From an uncultured Poribacteria bacterium (GTDB lineage: Bacteria; Poribacteria; WGA-4E; PCPOR2b): a stretch of 64,000 nt of DNA. Made by a program: the position numbers and the translations under genes. Shown one piece after another: positions 4 through 52,360 of the stretch (positions are counted from its first letter, which is position 1; each line of letters begins with the position of its first letter). The stretch is taken from assembly GCA_958296125.1 (NCBI GenBank), contig OY282444.1:2761623-2825622 (forward strand). Direction: 5' to 3'. Under the pieces are notes generated by a model, which worked only from the letters and a program-made list of their open reading frames with translations, made no database searches and was not told where the DNA came from.

Positions 4-51
4 TTCTTTGACCCCTGGAAGGGGAGGGTTATTGACCGTATATTCTTTATA

Positions 52-654
52 TTAGATATTCTGCACAGGAAGGCGGCTGATAGATTCATCAATAATGTGT
101 TGATGTTTTTCTGTGTCGAGTGTCTGATCAATGATTTTGCTTGCAGCATCAATCGCAATCTCTGCAACGGTGCCTCGCAGTTCGAGGATGGCTTCGTCCT
201 TTTCACGCTGGATCTCGGCACGTGCCCGTTCAAGCTCAGCACTTGCCTCCTGACGTGCTTGATCAAGAATACGCTGCCGTTCAACATTTCCCTCATTGAT
301 AGCGGCTTGGATCTTCGTCTGTCCTTCCGCTTCGATGTCGTTGAGTCGCTGGCGGGTTTCAGCACTCAGCCGATCCAGTTCATGTTGGTCCGCCTCTAGC
401 TTCTCCATTCGTGATGTAATTTCCTGTTGCCGTTCTTCTAAAAGTCCGCCAACGCGCCCAAAGACGAACTTCCAGAGCACGAGTAGAACAATGAGAAAAC
501 CTAAGGCTTGGAGAATAATTGTCTTGGGATCGATGCCAATGAGTTCTAAAAGTCCCGCGTCACCGGAGCTCGCTTCCGCAGCAAATCCGCTTGTCGGAAC
601 AATTAACATTACCTTGATGATAATCAGTAAAAAGATCCACGATAGTTTTGTCAT
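52..654 (-). CDS. atpF: F0F1 ATP synthase subunit b (AtpF)
   Basis: Peripheral-stalk subunit b, linking the membrane a subunit to F1. The start is placed at the ATG that gives MTKLSWIFLL. The open frame extends upstream to 759 but that part is encoded by repeat-like spacer. The protein has an unusual Sec-signal-like N-terminus (hydrophobic core, then GFAAEASS), then a second membrane segment (about residues 36-60, ending LWKFVFG), and a long charged alpha-helical tail rich in Glu, Arg and Gln typical of the b-subunit coiled coil. It follows atpE in the operon. The extra N-terminal hydrophobic segment is longer than in E. coli AtpF. Confidence 0.93.
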   Translation of the reverse strand: MTKLSWIFLLIIIKVMLIVPTSGFAAEASSGDAGLLELIGIDPKTIILQALGFLIVLLVLWKFVFGRVGGLLEERQQEITSRMEKLEADQHELDRLSAETRQRLNDIEAEGQTKIQAAINEGNVERQRILDQARQEASAELERARAEIQREKDEAILELRGTVAEIAIDAASKIIDQTLDTEKHQHIIDESISRLPVQNI

Positions 655-46756: not shown

Positions 46757-47218
46757 TCATTCGGCCATCTGTCGGATTGCTTCTTCGTAGATCTCCCTGA
46801 GCGGGGCCCCATGTTGCTCGGCAAGCCGCTTGCAATCTTCGTATTCAGGAACTGTTTTAATTAACTGGTTTTCCAAATACCCGCATTTCGCACGGACAGT
46901 TCCCCATCGCGTTTGGACATCGACAAAATCACGAGTCAGTTTTAATCGTTCAACGGTGTAGCATCTGATGCCAAACGTGGTTGTTTCTATGAGAAGCATT
47001 TTGCTCAGTGCATCGCGGAGCGTCGGTGTACAAAGGACACTCAGTTTTGTCGCCGGTCGACCTTTCTTCATGAAAATCGGTGTCATGAAAACGTCGAGGG
47101 CACCTCGCTCAAACAGTTGCTCCATCAGATAGCCCGCAATCTCTGGCGACATATCGTCGAGGTTAGTTTCAATCACGCAGACCTGATCGCGCTCAACGGT
47201 TTTTTTTTGCCGATACAT
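46757..47218 (-). CDS. larC: LarC C-terminal part (LarC2), nickel-pincer cofactor biosynthesis
   Basis: A 153-aa frame that continues LarC: VIETNLDDMSPEIAGYLMEQ, MKKGRPATKLSVLC and ETTTFGIRCYTVER are typical of the C-terminal CTP/nickel-binding half (DUF111). Its 5' part overlaps the larC1 frame by 46 bp around a run of nine A (minus strand), one base back in frame. It is probably translated mainly as a fusion by -1 slippage at that run. Confidence 0.88.
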   Translation of the reverse strand: MYRQKKTVERDQVCVIETNLDDMSPEIAGYLMEQLFERGALDVFMTPIFMKKGRPATKLSVLCTPTLRDALSKMLLIETTTFGIRCYTVERLKLTRDFVDVQTRWGTVRAKCGYLENQLIKTVPEYEDCKRLAEQHGAPLREIYEEAIRQMAE

Positions 47219-48006
47219 AGTCGTAAGAGGTTCGGTTGCTCCTCAAGATTGCGTGTTCCAGCACCGTAGCCAATTCGGTTGATGGTCATCTCCGGCATTC
47301 TACCGAATCCATCCGCAAGCGTCGTGATAATGGCTGCACCGGTGGGTGTCACCAATTCTTTTCGGATGTCAGTCTGTCGGATGGGCACACCGCACAGCAG
47401 TTCCATCGTTCCCGGCGCAGGGACGGGCATAAATCCGTGGGCGCATCGGACGAAGCCGCCTCCGAGCGACAGCGGAGAGGCGTAGATTTCATCAACCTCT
47501 AGAAGGTGTAGTCCAACGACGGCTCCAACGATGTCCACTATCGCATCGATGCCGCTAACTTCGTGTAGGTGCACCTGATCTTTGGGGGTGTTGTGGACTT
47601 TCGCTTCCGCCGCTGCCAGTCGATCAAAAATCCGCTTTGCGCGGTCAATGATTACTTCCCCAAGGTCGCTATTGTCCAGAATAGCAAAAATATCGGAGAG
47701 GTGACGGCTTGGTCCATGCGTGTGCGAGTGATCATGATGCTCGTGCTCGTGGGTGTGATGGTGGTGTGTCTCCGAAGAGTCGTTGTGCCCGTGTGAACCC
47801 TCAGTCGGATCAGCGGTTTCCACGACTGCCCGTGTGCCGCTGATGCTGTGCTTCGTGGCTTTCTCGAAACGCAAAGTAAATTCGTCCAGTTTCAACTTTG
47901 CCAACTCCGTGCTCAGTGCGTCTGGATCGACCCCCCCATCAACCAAGGCACCGAGCACCATGTCTCCACTGATACCTGAGAAGCAATCGAAATAGGCAAT
48001 TTTCAA
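47173..48006 (-). CDS. larC: LarC N-terminal part (LarC1), nickel-pincer cofactor biosynthesis
   Basis: A 277-aa frame beginning MKIAYFDCFSGISGDMVLGA, the LarC signature, with a His-rich nickel-binding segment (HHHHTHEHEHHDHSHTHG) and LHEVSGIDAIVDIVGA. LarC inserts Ni into the pincer nucleotide used by lactate racemase LarA and relatives. The frame stops soon after GTRNLEEQPNLLRLCIGKKK, where larC2 begins at the A9 run. The start is a TTG with AAGGAG 6 nt upstream. No larA, larB or larE is in the window. Confidence 0.9.
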   Translation of the reverse strand: MKIAYFDCFSGISGDMVLGALVDGGVDPDALSTELAKLKLDEFTLRFEKATKHSISGTRAVVETADPTEGSHGHNDSSETHHHHTHEHEHHDHSHTHGPSRHLSDIFAILDNSDLGEVIIDRAKRIFDRLAAAEAKVHNTPKDQVHLHEVSGIDAIVDIVGAVVGLHLLEVDEIYASPLSLGGGFVRCAHGFMPVPAPGTMELLCGVPIRQTDIRKELVTPTGAAIITTLADGFGRMPEMTINRIGYGAGTRNLEEQPNLLRLCIGKKKPLSAIRSA

Positions 48007-48204: not shown

Positions 48205-49131
48205 TTAGTACCCCAGCAACTCAATCCCTTCTCGATACGTCTGAGCCGATGTTTGCAACGCTTGGAGTTCAGCGTCGGTTAATTCAACTTCGATAATCTG
48301 TTCGACACCGGCCTCCCCTAATTTAATTGGAACACCGATATAAAGGTCGTCAATACCGAACTGTCCGGTCAGATGTGCTGCACAGGGAATAAGTCGTTTT
48401 TTGTCGCGGATAATTGCATCCGCCATCTGAGCAAGCGAGGCACCCGCTGCGTAGTAACCACTTGTCTTCAGCAGATCGACCACTTCCGCACCGCCATCTC
48501 GGGTGCGCTGTGCCAATTCCTCAATTCGTTCCGCAGACATCAGTTGCGTAATTGGGATTCCGCCGACCGTTGTGTAACGTGGCAGAGGCACCATCGTATC
48601 TCCGTGTCCCCCCATCACGAGGGCACTGATATCTTCAACGGACACCCCTAGCTCAAGGGAGATGAAGTAACGGAAACGCGCTGAATCGAGTACACCCGCC
48701 TGTCCAACCACTCGGTTAGACGGAAATCCCGAAACCTTCCACCCATGATAGGTCATGATGTCCAACGGATTGGTCAACATTACAATGATGCAATCCGGCG
48801 AGTGCTTCACGACGTTTTCCGTGACGCTGCCAACGATTCTCGCGTTTGTTTGCAAAAGATCTTCGCGGGTCATCCCCGGCTTGCGGGGCGATCCAGAGGT
48901 GATAATCACCACGTCAGAACCCGCCGTATCTTCGTAACCTATTGAACCCGTGACACTTGCGTCGAACATTTCAACGGGCGATGCCTGTGCCATATCCAAA
49001 CTTTTTCCTTGCGGGATGCCGTCGATAATGTCTATCATCACGACATCGCCAAGCTGCTTTTGTGCGATGAACAGCGCGGCAGTCGCGCCGACATTTCCAG
49101 CACCAATCACACTAATTTTTTTTCGAGCCAT
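48205..49131 (-). CDS. mdh: Malate dehydrogenase (LDH-like MDH)
   Basis: NAD-dependent oxidation of malate to oxaloacetate, TCA cycle, 308 aa. It has the Rossmann motif VIGAGNVGAT, substrate-binding ITSGSPRKPGMTR, NPLDIMTYHGW and the catalytic His in MGGHGDTMV. The Arg-rich loop (RKPGMTR) with Arg rather than Gln at the specificity position favours malate over lactate. It is followed upstream by icd and the citrate synthase-like gene on the same strand. Confidence 0.94.
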   Translation of the reverse strand: MARKKISVIGAGNVGATAALFIAQKQLGDVVMIDIIDGIPQGKSLDMAQASPVEMFDASVTGSIGYEDTAGSDVVIITSGSPRKPGMTREDLLQTNARIVGSVTENVVKHSPDCIIVMLTNPLDIMTYHGWKVSGFPSNRVVGQAGVLDSARFRYFISLELGVSVEDISALVMGGHGDTMVPLPRYTTVGGIPITQLMSAERIEELAQRTRDGGAEVVDLLKTSGYYAAGASLAQMADAIIRDKKRLIPCAAHLTGQFGIDDLYIGVPIKLGEAGVEQIIEVELTDAELQALQTSAQTYREGIELLGY

Positions 49132-49436: not shown

Positions 49437-50645
49437 TTATGCTTCTGCGTTCACGTATTCTTCCCACCGTGCCTCAACATTGGCATCCTCAACTGTCTCC
49501 ATGATGTAATTACCGAATGCCTCGCTGGTTGCACCTGTGCTGCGTCCGGTCATAACAACCTTGCGCTCGTACTGCCCGCAAATGTCGAGGGCTTTGTGCA
49601 GCTTTTGACCGAGTTCATCAAATCCGATATGCTCAAGCATCATGGCACCTGCCCGAATAAGAGAGCTTGGGTCGGCATACTGCGCCCTTCCTTCTTGCAC
49701 CATTCGCGGGGCACTCCCGTGAATCGCCTCAAACATGGCATACTGTTTGCCGATGTTCGCGCTACCGGCGGTTCCAACGCCACCCTGAATCTGGGCTGCC
49801 TCATCAGTTAAGATATCACCGTAGAGGTTGGGGAGCACAAGTACTTGGAAATCCTGTTGACGCGCTGGATTTATCAGGGCCGCGGTCATAATGTCGATGT
49901 ACCAACTATCCCATTCAATATCCGTATACCGTTTCGCAATCTTGCGAGCAAAATCGAGAAACTTACCGTCGGTCGTCTTGACGATGTTTGCCTTTGTGAC
50001 GACCGTCACCTTAGTTTTGCCGGTCCGTTTCGCGTGGGCAAAGGCTGCCTCAATAATCCGTTCAGACCCTTGGCTTGTGATGACGCGAAAATCTATCCCC
50101 AAGTCATCGGTGACATTGATGCCTTGGCTGCCAAGCGCGTACATATCTTCGGTGTTCTCACGAAAGAAGGTCCAGTCAATGTTTTCAGCAGGAACGCGCA
50201 CCGGGCGGACATTAGCGAATAGGTCAAGTAACTTACGCATGGAAACGTTCGCGCTCTCTAAATTGGGCCACCCATCCCCTTGTTCAGGCGTATGAGTTGG
50301 TCCCTTTAGCGTTACATGGCACGCCTTAATCTCCTCGAGCACATCGTCCGGTATTGACTGCATCTGTGCAGCACGGTTTTCGATGGTGAGCCCTTCTATG
50401 AACCGAAACTCAACCTTCCCGCTGCTGACCGGCTCGCGCAGGAGATATTCAAACACACGCTGGGTTGCGGCACTAATCGTTGGACCAATGCCGTCACCAC
50501 CAAGCATACCAACAATGATAGGAGAAATAGAACTGTAATCCATCCAATCTGGTTCTTGTTTGAGTTTCTCGACTCTCTCAAGTTGCTGCTGCAAAACGTT
50601 TCCGAAATGTTCTTTTGCGGCCTCAATTGCCTCTGAGTTGACCAC
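49437..50645 (-). CDS. icd: Isocitrate dehydrogenase (NAD(P)-dependent, Icd/IDH family)
   Basis: Oxidative decarboxylation of isocitrate, 402 aa, in the IDH/IPMDH superfamily. The isocitrate-binding motif SANVSMRKLLDLFANVRPVR matches ICDH (S-x-N-x2-R), and the metal region NLYGDILTDEAAQIQGGVGT is intact. The start is a GTG with AAAGGAGT upstream. The cofactor preference is not obvious from sequence by eye. 3-isopropylmalate dehydrogenase is unlikely because of the Ser-containing active-site helix. Confidence 0.92.
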   Translation of the reverse strand: MVNSEAIEAAKEHFGNVLQQQLERVEKLKQEPDWMDYSSISPIIVGMLGGDGIGPTISAATQRVFEYLLREPVSSGKVEFRFIEGLTIENRAAQMQSIPDDVLEEIKACHVTLKGPTHTPEQGDGWPNLESANVSMRKLLDLFANVRPVRVPAENIDWTFFRENTEDMYALGSQGINVTDDLGIDFRVITSQGSERIIEAAFAHAKRTGKTKVTVVTKANIVKTTDGKFLDFARKIAKRYTDIEWDSWYIDIMTAALINPARQQDFQVLVLPNLYGDILTDEAAQIQGGVGTAGSANIGKQYAMFEAIHGSAPRMVQEGRAQYADPSSLIRAGAMMLEHIGFDELGQKLHKALDICGQYERKVVMTGRSTGATSEAFGNYIMETVEDANVEARWEEYVNAEA

Positions 50646-50797: not shown

Positions 50798-52360
50798 TCA
50801 ATGTGGGGAAAAAGCGTCTTCCTGAACCAGTCGATTATGGGTTGAGACAACCAGATCCGGAATCGTTAAATCACTGCTATCTGTGGGAATAATCTGGGGG
50901 TCGGGAGGGATGACCGGGCGAATAATGTGACGGTCTTGCAATTGTTCTCGCGCATCCATTATCCAACCAAATCCCCTAAAGATGTAGGTAAGCAGCGTTC
51001 GATCTAATTCATGGATACCCAACGCCTCTTGAACCGCCCAGCCTCCGAAATCTGTGTTTGGTGTCAAACGAAGTGGCGGATCGTTTTCTCGTCCCGGCTT
51101 AATCACGCCTTCGACAAACGCAAGCTGATATATACGTTGAACCATGCTGAGCCGCTGCTTTTGCTTCTCGTCAAGCGTGAGCTCCCCGCTATCTATTGCC
51201 TGCAAAATAGGTTCAATGTAAATTGCAGGTCTCGGATCTTGCTGAATTTCGTCGACTCTACCTGCGGCAGCTATTTCGGGGTGACCAAACGTTGGAATCC
51301 CTCCTCCGAGCACTTCGTTTCGGATAGCTTCTTCCCGCTTTTCTGGAGGGAGTTGTTCAAGTGCATTGATAAAATGCGTCATATCATGAATTGCGCCAAA
51401 ATGCCGATCTCCGTCAAGGTTCATGTGAGCGGCAGTCAAGAAGTCAGAGACAGAGGGAGTATGTAACGTTGCCATATATCGGGCAACCATGTTGGATCCG
51501 GCCGATCCGTGGTGGGTTTGTATGACTCCCATTCGTTCCAAGGCTTTATTCTCTACTTCATTGGCACGGTGGCCCAAGAGAAGACTGTAGCACGTCTGAA
51601 ACGCCGTTTTCCCCGCGTTATCTTCTTCTGTGATAAGCGCGTTCGTTTGGCAGGCGAGCTGTTCAGGGGTTAAATTCGCGTTCTTTTCTAGTAGACCGCG
51701 CATGTAAGCTGACGTTGCGCCTACTGCTACATTCTCCATCTGTGTTCCAATCATTTGAAGTAGAAGGCGGCCCTCACACCTTTCGTCGTTCAACCCACGC
51801 TCTGGGATGCGGTTTTTCGCCCGATTTGCTTTTCTCAGCGTCGAAAAGTGCTGAATTGCAAGCTCGGGCCCCAACTCTGGAAATGTTTCAACAAAGTTGG
51901 CGACCTGCTCGATTAATGTCTGGCACCCCGAAGTATCTTCCCTGATAACCCTTCTGGCTCGGTAAAACTTGCGATTAATCAGTTCCCTCAGCACTGCCTC
52001 TTCGTCGAAACCCTTCTGAACCTTTTCGGGTCTTCTACCGAACAAACCTACAAAGATTACATACGCAGGCGCAAGTCCGCTGGCGACAATCTCACTCTCT
52101 TGAATCACACCGCGGATGCCAAAACTACGGATATTCAGTGTTATATCTGCGCCAGCGCAATCAACTTTTGCGTGATGCAAAACCGGATTTGCGAAAACCT
52201 TCGTGGACTGAGGCATCGTGTTAAAAGCTTTGAGAACATTTGCGATTGCTTGTTCATCCAATTGTCCTGCGCTTTGCAGCGCATCCGTCACCGGGCTGTA
52301 AGTTGAAGTTTCAGGGAGCTCTGAAAACATCTGTCGCATGGCTGCTATCTTCTGTGCCAT
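50798..52360 (-). CDS. Divergent citrate synthase-like protein
   Basis: A 520-aa protein whose C-terminal 250 residues follow the citrate synthase plan: QTHHGSAGSNMVARYMATLH (His283/284), GDRHFGAIHDM (His320, corresponding to the first catalytic His), TFGHPEI (His360, second catalytic His), a DPR motif (375-377), and LTPNTDFGGW (catalytic Asp437). Then an IFRGFGWIMDAREQ segment resembles the dimer-interface tail. The N-terminal 200 residues are poorly conserved and the usual RVYK after the second His is PEIA. The neighbours icd and mdh support a TCA role, condensing oxaloacetate with acetyl-CoA, but a different acyl-CoA or lyase role is possible. Confidence 0.75.
   Translation of the reverse strand: MAQKIAAMRQMFSELPETSTYSPVTDALQSAGQLDEQAIANVLKAFNTMPQSTKVFANPVLHHAKVDCAGADITLNIRSFGIRGVIQESEIVASGLAPAYVIFVGLFGRRPEKVQKGFDEEAVLRELINRKFYRARRVIREDTSGCQTLIEQVANFVETFPELGPELAIQHFSTLRKANRAKNRIPERGLNDERCEGRLLLQMIGTQMENVAVGATSAYMRGLLEKNANLTPEQLACQTNALITEEDNAGKTAFQTCYSLLLGHRANEVENKALERMGVIQTHHGSAGSNMVARYMATLHTPSVSDFLTAAHMNLDGDRHFGAIHDMTHFINALEQLPPEKREEAIRNEVLGGGIPTFGHPEIAAAGRVDEIQQDPRPAIYIEPILQAIDSGELTLDEKQKQRLSMVQRIYQLAFVEGVIKPGRENDPPLRLTPNTDFGGWAVQEALGIHELDRTLLTYIFRGFGWIMDAREQLQDRHIIRPVIPPDPQIIPTDSSDLTIPDLVVSTHNRLVQEDAFSPH

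Follow-up and report, generated by a model that had tools for sequence, protein, structure and literature searches.

A deep-branching citrate synthase-family protein, probably the TCA-cycle citrate synthase of one order of Candidatus Poribacteria

The divergent gene and its neighbours

The window analysed here is a stretch of 64,000 nucleotides from a Candidatus Poribacteria genome that consists of a single contig of 5.16 Mb. It holds an open reading frame for a divergent protein of the citrate synthase family, directly followed by icd and then mdh (Table 1), as a sequence-only reading of the window had reported. The window icd product missed the NCBIfam isocitrate dehydrogenase cut-offs (best 262.5 bits versus 509). 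The gene after mdh (46757-48006, minus strand) was larC-like by eye. In the window and at L003, L004 and L006 this gene occupied two frames that overlap or abut, which suggests programmed frameshifting, known for LarC, and not an assembly error.

The nearest relatives of the divergent protein, at 56-89% identity, all came from Candidatus Poribacteria. Across three comparisons to close relatives (86-89% identity), the gene had a dN/dS of 0.08-0.10, and seven active-site positions were invariant in 41 distinct homologues. The gene is thus conserved and under purifying selection.

Table 1. Coordinates of the divergent gene, its active-site codons and the neighbouring genes in the window.
Feature	Position	Strand	Basis
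Divergent citrate synthase, 520 aa	50798..52360	(-)	ORF; PF00285; AF2 models; dN/dS
Residues 44-482, fold-aligning part	50915..52231	(-)	VIA-align 44..480 and 51..479; hhalign 68-482
His320 codon (His264 in E. coli GltA)	51401..51403	(-)	alignment (H265 counting Met); invariant in 41 homologues
His360 codon (His305 in E. coli GltA)	51281..51283	(-)	alignment; invariant in 41 homologues
Lengthened loop, residues 361-376, second catalytic His to DPR Arg	51233..51280	(-)	three alignments
Arg377 codon in DPR (Arg314 in E. coli GltA, which binds oxaloacetate)	51230..51232	(-)	alignment; invariant
Asp437 codon (Asp362 in E. coli GltA)	51050..51052	(-)	alignment; invariant
Ala287 codon, canonical Asn of HxxNAS	51500..51502	(-)	Ala in 41/41 homologues
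icd, isocitrate/isopropylmalate dehydrogenase family, cluster gene 2	49437..50645	(-)	PF00180, 219.9 bits
mdh, malate dehydrogenase, cluster gene 3	48205..49131	(-)	TIGR01763, 464.2 bits, cut-off 351.85

Family membership, predicted fold and active site

A Pfam scan of the divergent protein returned matches to PF00285 only, hence none to PF00682, the Re-citrate synthase family. The PF00285 match scored 53.8 bits, above the gathering threshold of 27, and covered residues 246-482 only. All NCBIfam citrate synthase cut-offs were missed (best 27.6 bits versus 594; TIGR01800, 27.0 bits versus 421.3), and identity to canonical citrate synthases was about 20-22%. Profile-profile alignment (hhalign) of 16 divergent family members against 13 canonical Poribacterial proteins matched residues 68-482 to canonical citrate synthases with a probability of 94% and an E value of 1.4e-7.

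Two AF2 models were built. Model 1, with family members alone in the alignment, had a pLDDT of 73.1 and a pTM of 0.78, and its top PDB matches were citrate and methylcitrate synthases (Z 24.5 to 3hwk_A over 325 residues at 3.4 A); Foldseek likewise led from this model to PDB entries of these two kinds. Model 2, whose alignment also included canonical sequences, had a pLDDT of 76.6 and a best PDB match with Z 28.6 over 334 residues at 3.2 A. Because the canonical sequences steered model 2 in part, model 1 is the independent one. Confidence was low close to the active site, at residues 299-321 and 361-365.

The predicted models match the citrate synthase fold with its large and small domain. Structure alignments between the models and PDB citrate synthases span from about residue 44-51 to residue 482, so that the shared fold leaves out only some 50 residues at the N-terminus and 38 at the C-terminus. 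The profile and model matches together indicate that the N-terminal part is mostly the same fold with a very divergent sequence, and that there are extra residues at both ends. The sequence-only reading had described the N-terminal 200 residues as unlike citrate synthase; this holds for their sequence but not for their fold, which starts at about residue 50. On these models, the divergent protein is a citrate-synthase-fold enzyme of the PF00285 type.

Residues His284, His320, His360, Arg377, Asp437, Arg462 and Arg481 aligned with GltA His230, His265, His306, Arg315, Asp363, Arg388 and Arg408, where the E. coli positions are counted with the initiator Met; we take these GltA residues to be H229, H264, H305, R314, D362, R387 and R407 of the literature numbering. 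In mature E. coli numbering, the catalytic H264, H305 and D362 correspond to H320, H360 and D437, and the oxaloacetate ligands His229, Arg314, Arg387 and Arg407 to H284, R377, R462 and R481. The DPR motif occupies residues 375-377. The retention of the catalytic triad and of DPR had been noticed from the window alone, and each was found at the residue named, invariant in the family. That reading had also counted a structure with the triad apart as evidence against it; the predicted fold and the aligned positions accord with citrate synthase.

Three changes set the family apart around these residues. Ala287 replaces the Asn of HxxNAS in 41/41 homologues and is lineage-specific, the Asn being kept in E. 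coli GltA, in PrpC and in 13/13 canonical Poribacterial proteins. Phe321 stands in place of Gly after the first catalytic His, again in 41/41 homologues. The region after the second His, which had been called altered, is lengthened by about 8 residues from His360 to DPR (GHPEIAAAGRVDEIQQDPR versus the canonical GHRVYKTxDPR). Because of these three changes, the substrate or kinetics of the divergent enzyme may differ from those of canonical enzymes.

Distribution and exchange with gltA

We surveyed 85 Poribacterial genomes with PF00285 and a profile of the divergent family. Within families f3 and f4 (62 genomes), the divergent protein was the sole PF00285 protein in 58 genomes, neither type was found in 4 drafts, and a canonical PF00285 protein was present in 0/62. 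Five single-contig genomes (G046, G080, G082, G083 and G084) carried the divergent protein alone. In family f1, 7/9 genomes had the divergent protein and 9/9 had at least one canonical protein. Both f2 genomes had two canonical proteins each and no divergent protein, and the remaining 12 genomes had the divergent protein in 0/12 and a canonical protein in 7/12.

Relatives of the divergent protein were not found in 302 genomes outside the phylum, in plasmids or in IMG/VR. A search of 334 genomes around G200 gave a single match, itself an f4 Poribacterium, and a scan of genome contigs with patterns taken from the single window protein, which may miss a distant relative, returned Poribacteria only. 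Within the searches made, no relative was found beyond one order of Poribacteria, and we found no description of the protein in the open-access literature.

The survey also turned up several unusual genomes. G004, of the same class and 95% complete, had no PF00285 protein at all. G015 (f1, 7% contamination) carried an f2-like gltA (L051, 4262-5428, minus strand; 74% identical to f2 gltA) in addition to PrpC and the divergent gene, and this copy either survives from an ancestral gltA or entered the draft as contamination. In G008, a PF00285 protein (L058, 1867-3060, minus strand; 206 bits) with a DNA-binding-like motif at its start is encoded head to head with a citrate synthase gene. It resembles citrate-synthase-like proteins that start with a helix-turn-helix, and comparable pairs occur in G007 and G010.

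A standard gltA elsewhere in the source genome had been named in the sequence-only reading as evidence that would count against its claim. The genome does hold a second PF00285 protein of standard type (428.9 bits). It is a PRK12351 equivalog (590.5 bits, cut-off 550), which NCBIfam names 'bifunctional 2-methylcitrate synthase/citrate synthase', it groups with E. coli PrpC in the tree (support 77), and its gene directly follows the methylisocitrate lyase gene prpB (TIGR02317, 428.7 bits, cut-off 354.4). A PrpD-family gene is also present. The copy is thus PrpC beside prpB, the standard gltA is there in appearance only, and the idea that a second gltA supplies the main citrate synthase of this genome was rejected. 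PrpC might also make some citrate.

An icd gene followed the divergent gene at every locus examined, and mdh lay close downstream in most; in an f3 operon (L017), the intergenic gaps were about 40 and 12 bases. In f2 (G014, L053), the first slot of the operon was occupied by gltA (PRK14036 equivalog, 576.6 bits, cut-off 502). The f2 icd after this gltA was 75-81% identical to the icd that the divergent gene precedes in f3, f4 and f1 outside the window's genus, and the f2 mdh was 77-85% identical to its counterparts in the same groups. On these identities, the flanking genes are orthologous, and in the first slot gltA and the divergent citrate synthase have been exchanged. Since f2 holds an ordinary gltA in that slot, one gene has displaced the other in place. 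The LeuA+LeuC tree placed f2 between f3 and f1+f4 (support 83), so gltA could either have been kept in f2 or regained there.

The icd of the window's genus was only about 33% identical to the same-slot icd of other Poribacterial families, whereas its mdh was 82% identical to f2 mdh. On these identities, the operon of this genus has undergone a further exchange, that of icd.

Probable function and comparison with known systems

Aconitase-family proteins were present in the 12 genomes sampled for pathway context, with AcnA equivalogs in G082 (890 aa) and G000 (908 aa). Both sucC and 2-oxoacid:ferredoxin oxidoreductase-type proteins were found in 12/12. For a classical 2-oxoglutarate dehydrogenase E1, no match in these 12 genomes exceeded the cut-off, and a ferredoxin-linked 2-oxoglutarate step is therefore probable. 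The PrpD family was absent from the eight f3/f4 genomes tested. Re-citrate synthase was considered as a hidden enzyme and rejected: the PF00682 proteins of three f4 genomes and the source genome (G082, G046, G080 and G000) were all typed as LeuA or CimA, which leaves no candidate in those four genomes. Aconitase and isocitrate dehydrogenase are present and no other citrate-forming enzyme was seen, and the divergent protein is therefore the only candidate there. Two TCA-cycle genes, left unnamed in the passage concerned, are reported to be strongly expressed in Poribacteria (PMC5087111).

We consider it highly probable that the divergent protein is the working PF00285-type TCA-cycle citrate synthase of one Candidatus Poribacteria order, a deep-branching clade that has been exchanged with gltA. 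This explanation is based on the predicted fold, the conserved active-site positions, the operon exchange and the sole copy in 58 genomes, and from it we infer which reaction is catalysed, in which direction and with what stereochemistry. The sequence-only reading had left the choice between a new clade of citrate synthase and a related acyl-CoA lyase. The fold, the active-site alignment and the sole copy in 58 relatives speak for the former, and the latter is not favoured; the divergent proteins form a new, deeply branching clade within a known enzyme family and most likely supply the citrate synthase of the order's TCA cycle.

The enzyme would join acetyl-CoA and oxaloacetate in the manner usual for citrate synthases. 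Asp437 would remove a proton from the acetyl methyl group, His320 would stabilise the enol and His360 would assist the attack on oxaloacetate, which His284, His360, Arg377, Arg462 and Arg481 would hold; hydrolysis of citryl-CoA would be the final step. These steps are established citrate synthase chemistry, and in known citrate synthases the equivalent of Arg481 comes from the partner subunit.

The altered loop and active-site neighbours could instead mark a real change of chemistry or direction, which would be why gltA was displaced. Examples would be an enzyme that cleaves citrate, with the oxidative cycle reversed and its 2-oxoacid oxidoreductases dependent on ferredoxin, or one that uses another acyl-CoA partner. 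We regard such a change as unlikely.

It is very unlikely that the protein is mainly a 2-methylcitrate synthase like PrpC, or a user of some other acyl-CoA, with citrate made elsewhere. Citrate and methylcitrate synthases have a common fold and active site, the top structural match was a methylcitrate synthase tied with citrate synthases, and the changed loop after His360 could be read in this way. However, the source genome has its separate PrpC by prpB and a PrpD-family gene, the eight f3/f4 genomes tested have neither the PrpD family nor another PF00285 protein, and the neighbours of the divergent gene are icd and mdh, with no prp genes.

A shade less probable again is a citryl-CoA lyase or another cleavage enzyme of the superfamily acting in a reductive cycle. 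The profile search weakly matched citryl-CoA lyase 6hxp (E 0.0066), and the sampled genomes combine ferredoxin-type 2-oxoacid oxidoreductases with no E1 over the cut-off. The same search, however, scored citrate synthase 2c6x better (E 1.1e-5), the oxaloacetate-binding Arg377, Arg462 and Arg481 and the catalytic Asp437 are retained, and gltA occupies the same slot in the sister family f2. A decayed or regulatory paralogue that has lost catalysis, to which the unusual Ala287 and Phe321 adjoining catalytic His residues might point, is scarcely credible given the seven invariant active-site residues in 41 homologues, a dN/dS of about 0.1 and the sole-copy status in 58 genomes.

With the divergent protein taken as the TCA-cycle citrate synthase, most sponge-type Poribacteria studied here have a very divergent 520-residue enzyme as their only recognisable one. 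One order thus appears to rely on a version of a central metabolic enzyme that the NCBIfam subfamily models do not recognise, and equivalog models alone would show its TCA cycle broken at the first step. The swap with gltA in an otherwise orthologous icd-mdh operon offers a natural experiment on the drift of a central enzyme, and the changed residues indicate where new substrate or regulatory behaviour might be sought.

Among known systems, type II citrate synthases (PF00285/TIGR01800, 360-380 aa; B. subtilis 2c6x, Thermus 1iom and 1ixe) have in common with the divergent protein the predicted fold over residues of about 50-482, the catalytic His/His/Asp, the oxaloacetate-binding His and Arg residues and DPR. 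The divergent protein differs from them in being about 140 residues longer, in its identity of about 20%, in its longer loop after the second His, and in two substitutions, Ala for the Asn of HxxNAS and Phe for the Gly that follows the first catalytic His. E. coli GltA (427 aa) is identical to it at the seven active-site positions. The divergent protein is 93 residues longer than GltA, close to the 90 of the earlier estimate, and its N-terminal extension may be non-homologous; in a tree from a trimmed alignment, a branch of 3.5 substitutions per site (support 100) divides the divergent family from GltA and every other canonical sequence. PrpC, which is encoded elsewhere in the source genome, has the fold predicted for the divergent protein; the divergent gene differs in lacking prp neighbours and in occurring in f3/f4 genomes that, where tested, lack the PrpD family. 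Re-citrate synthase (PF00682) catalyses in principle the same net reaction and belongs to an unrelated family.
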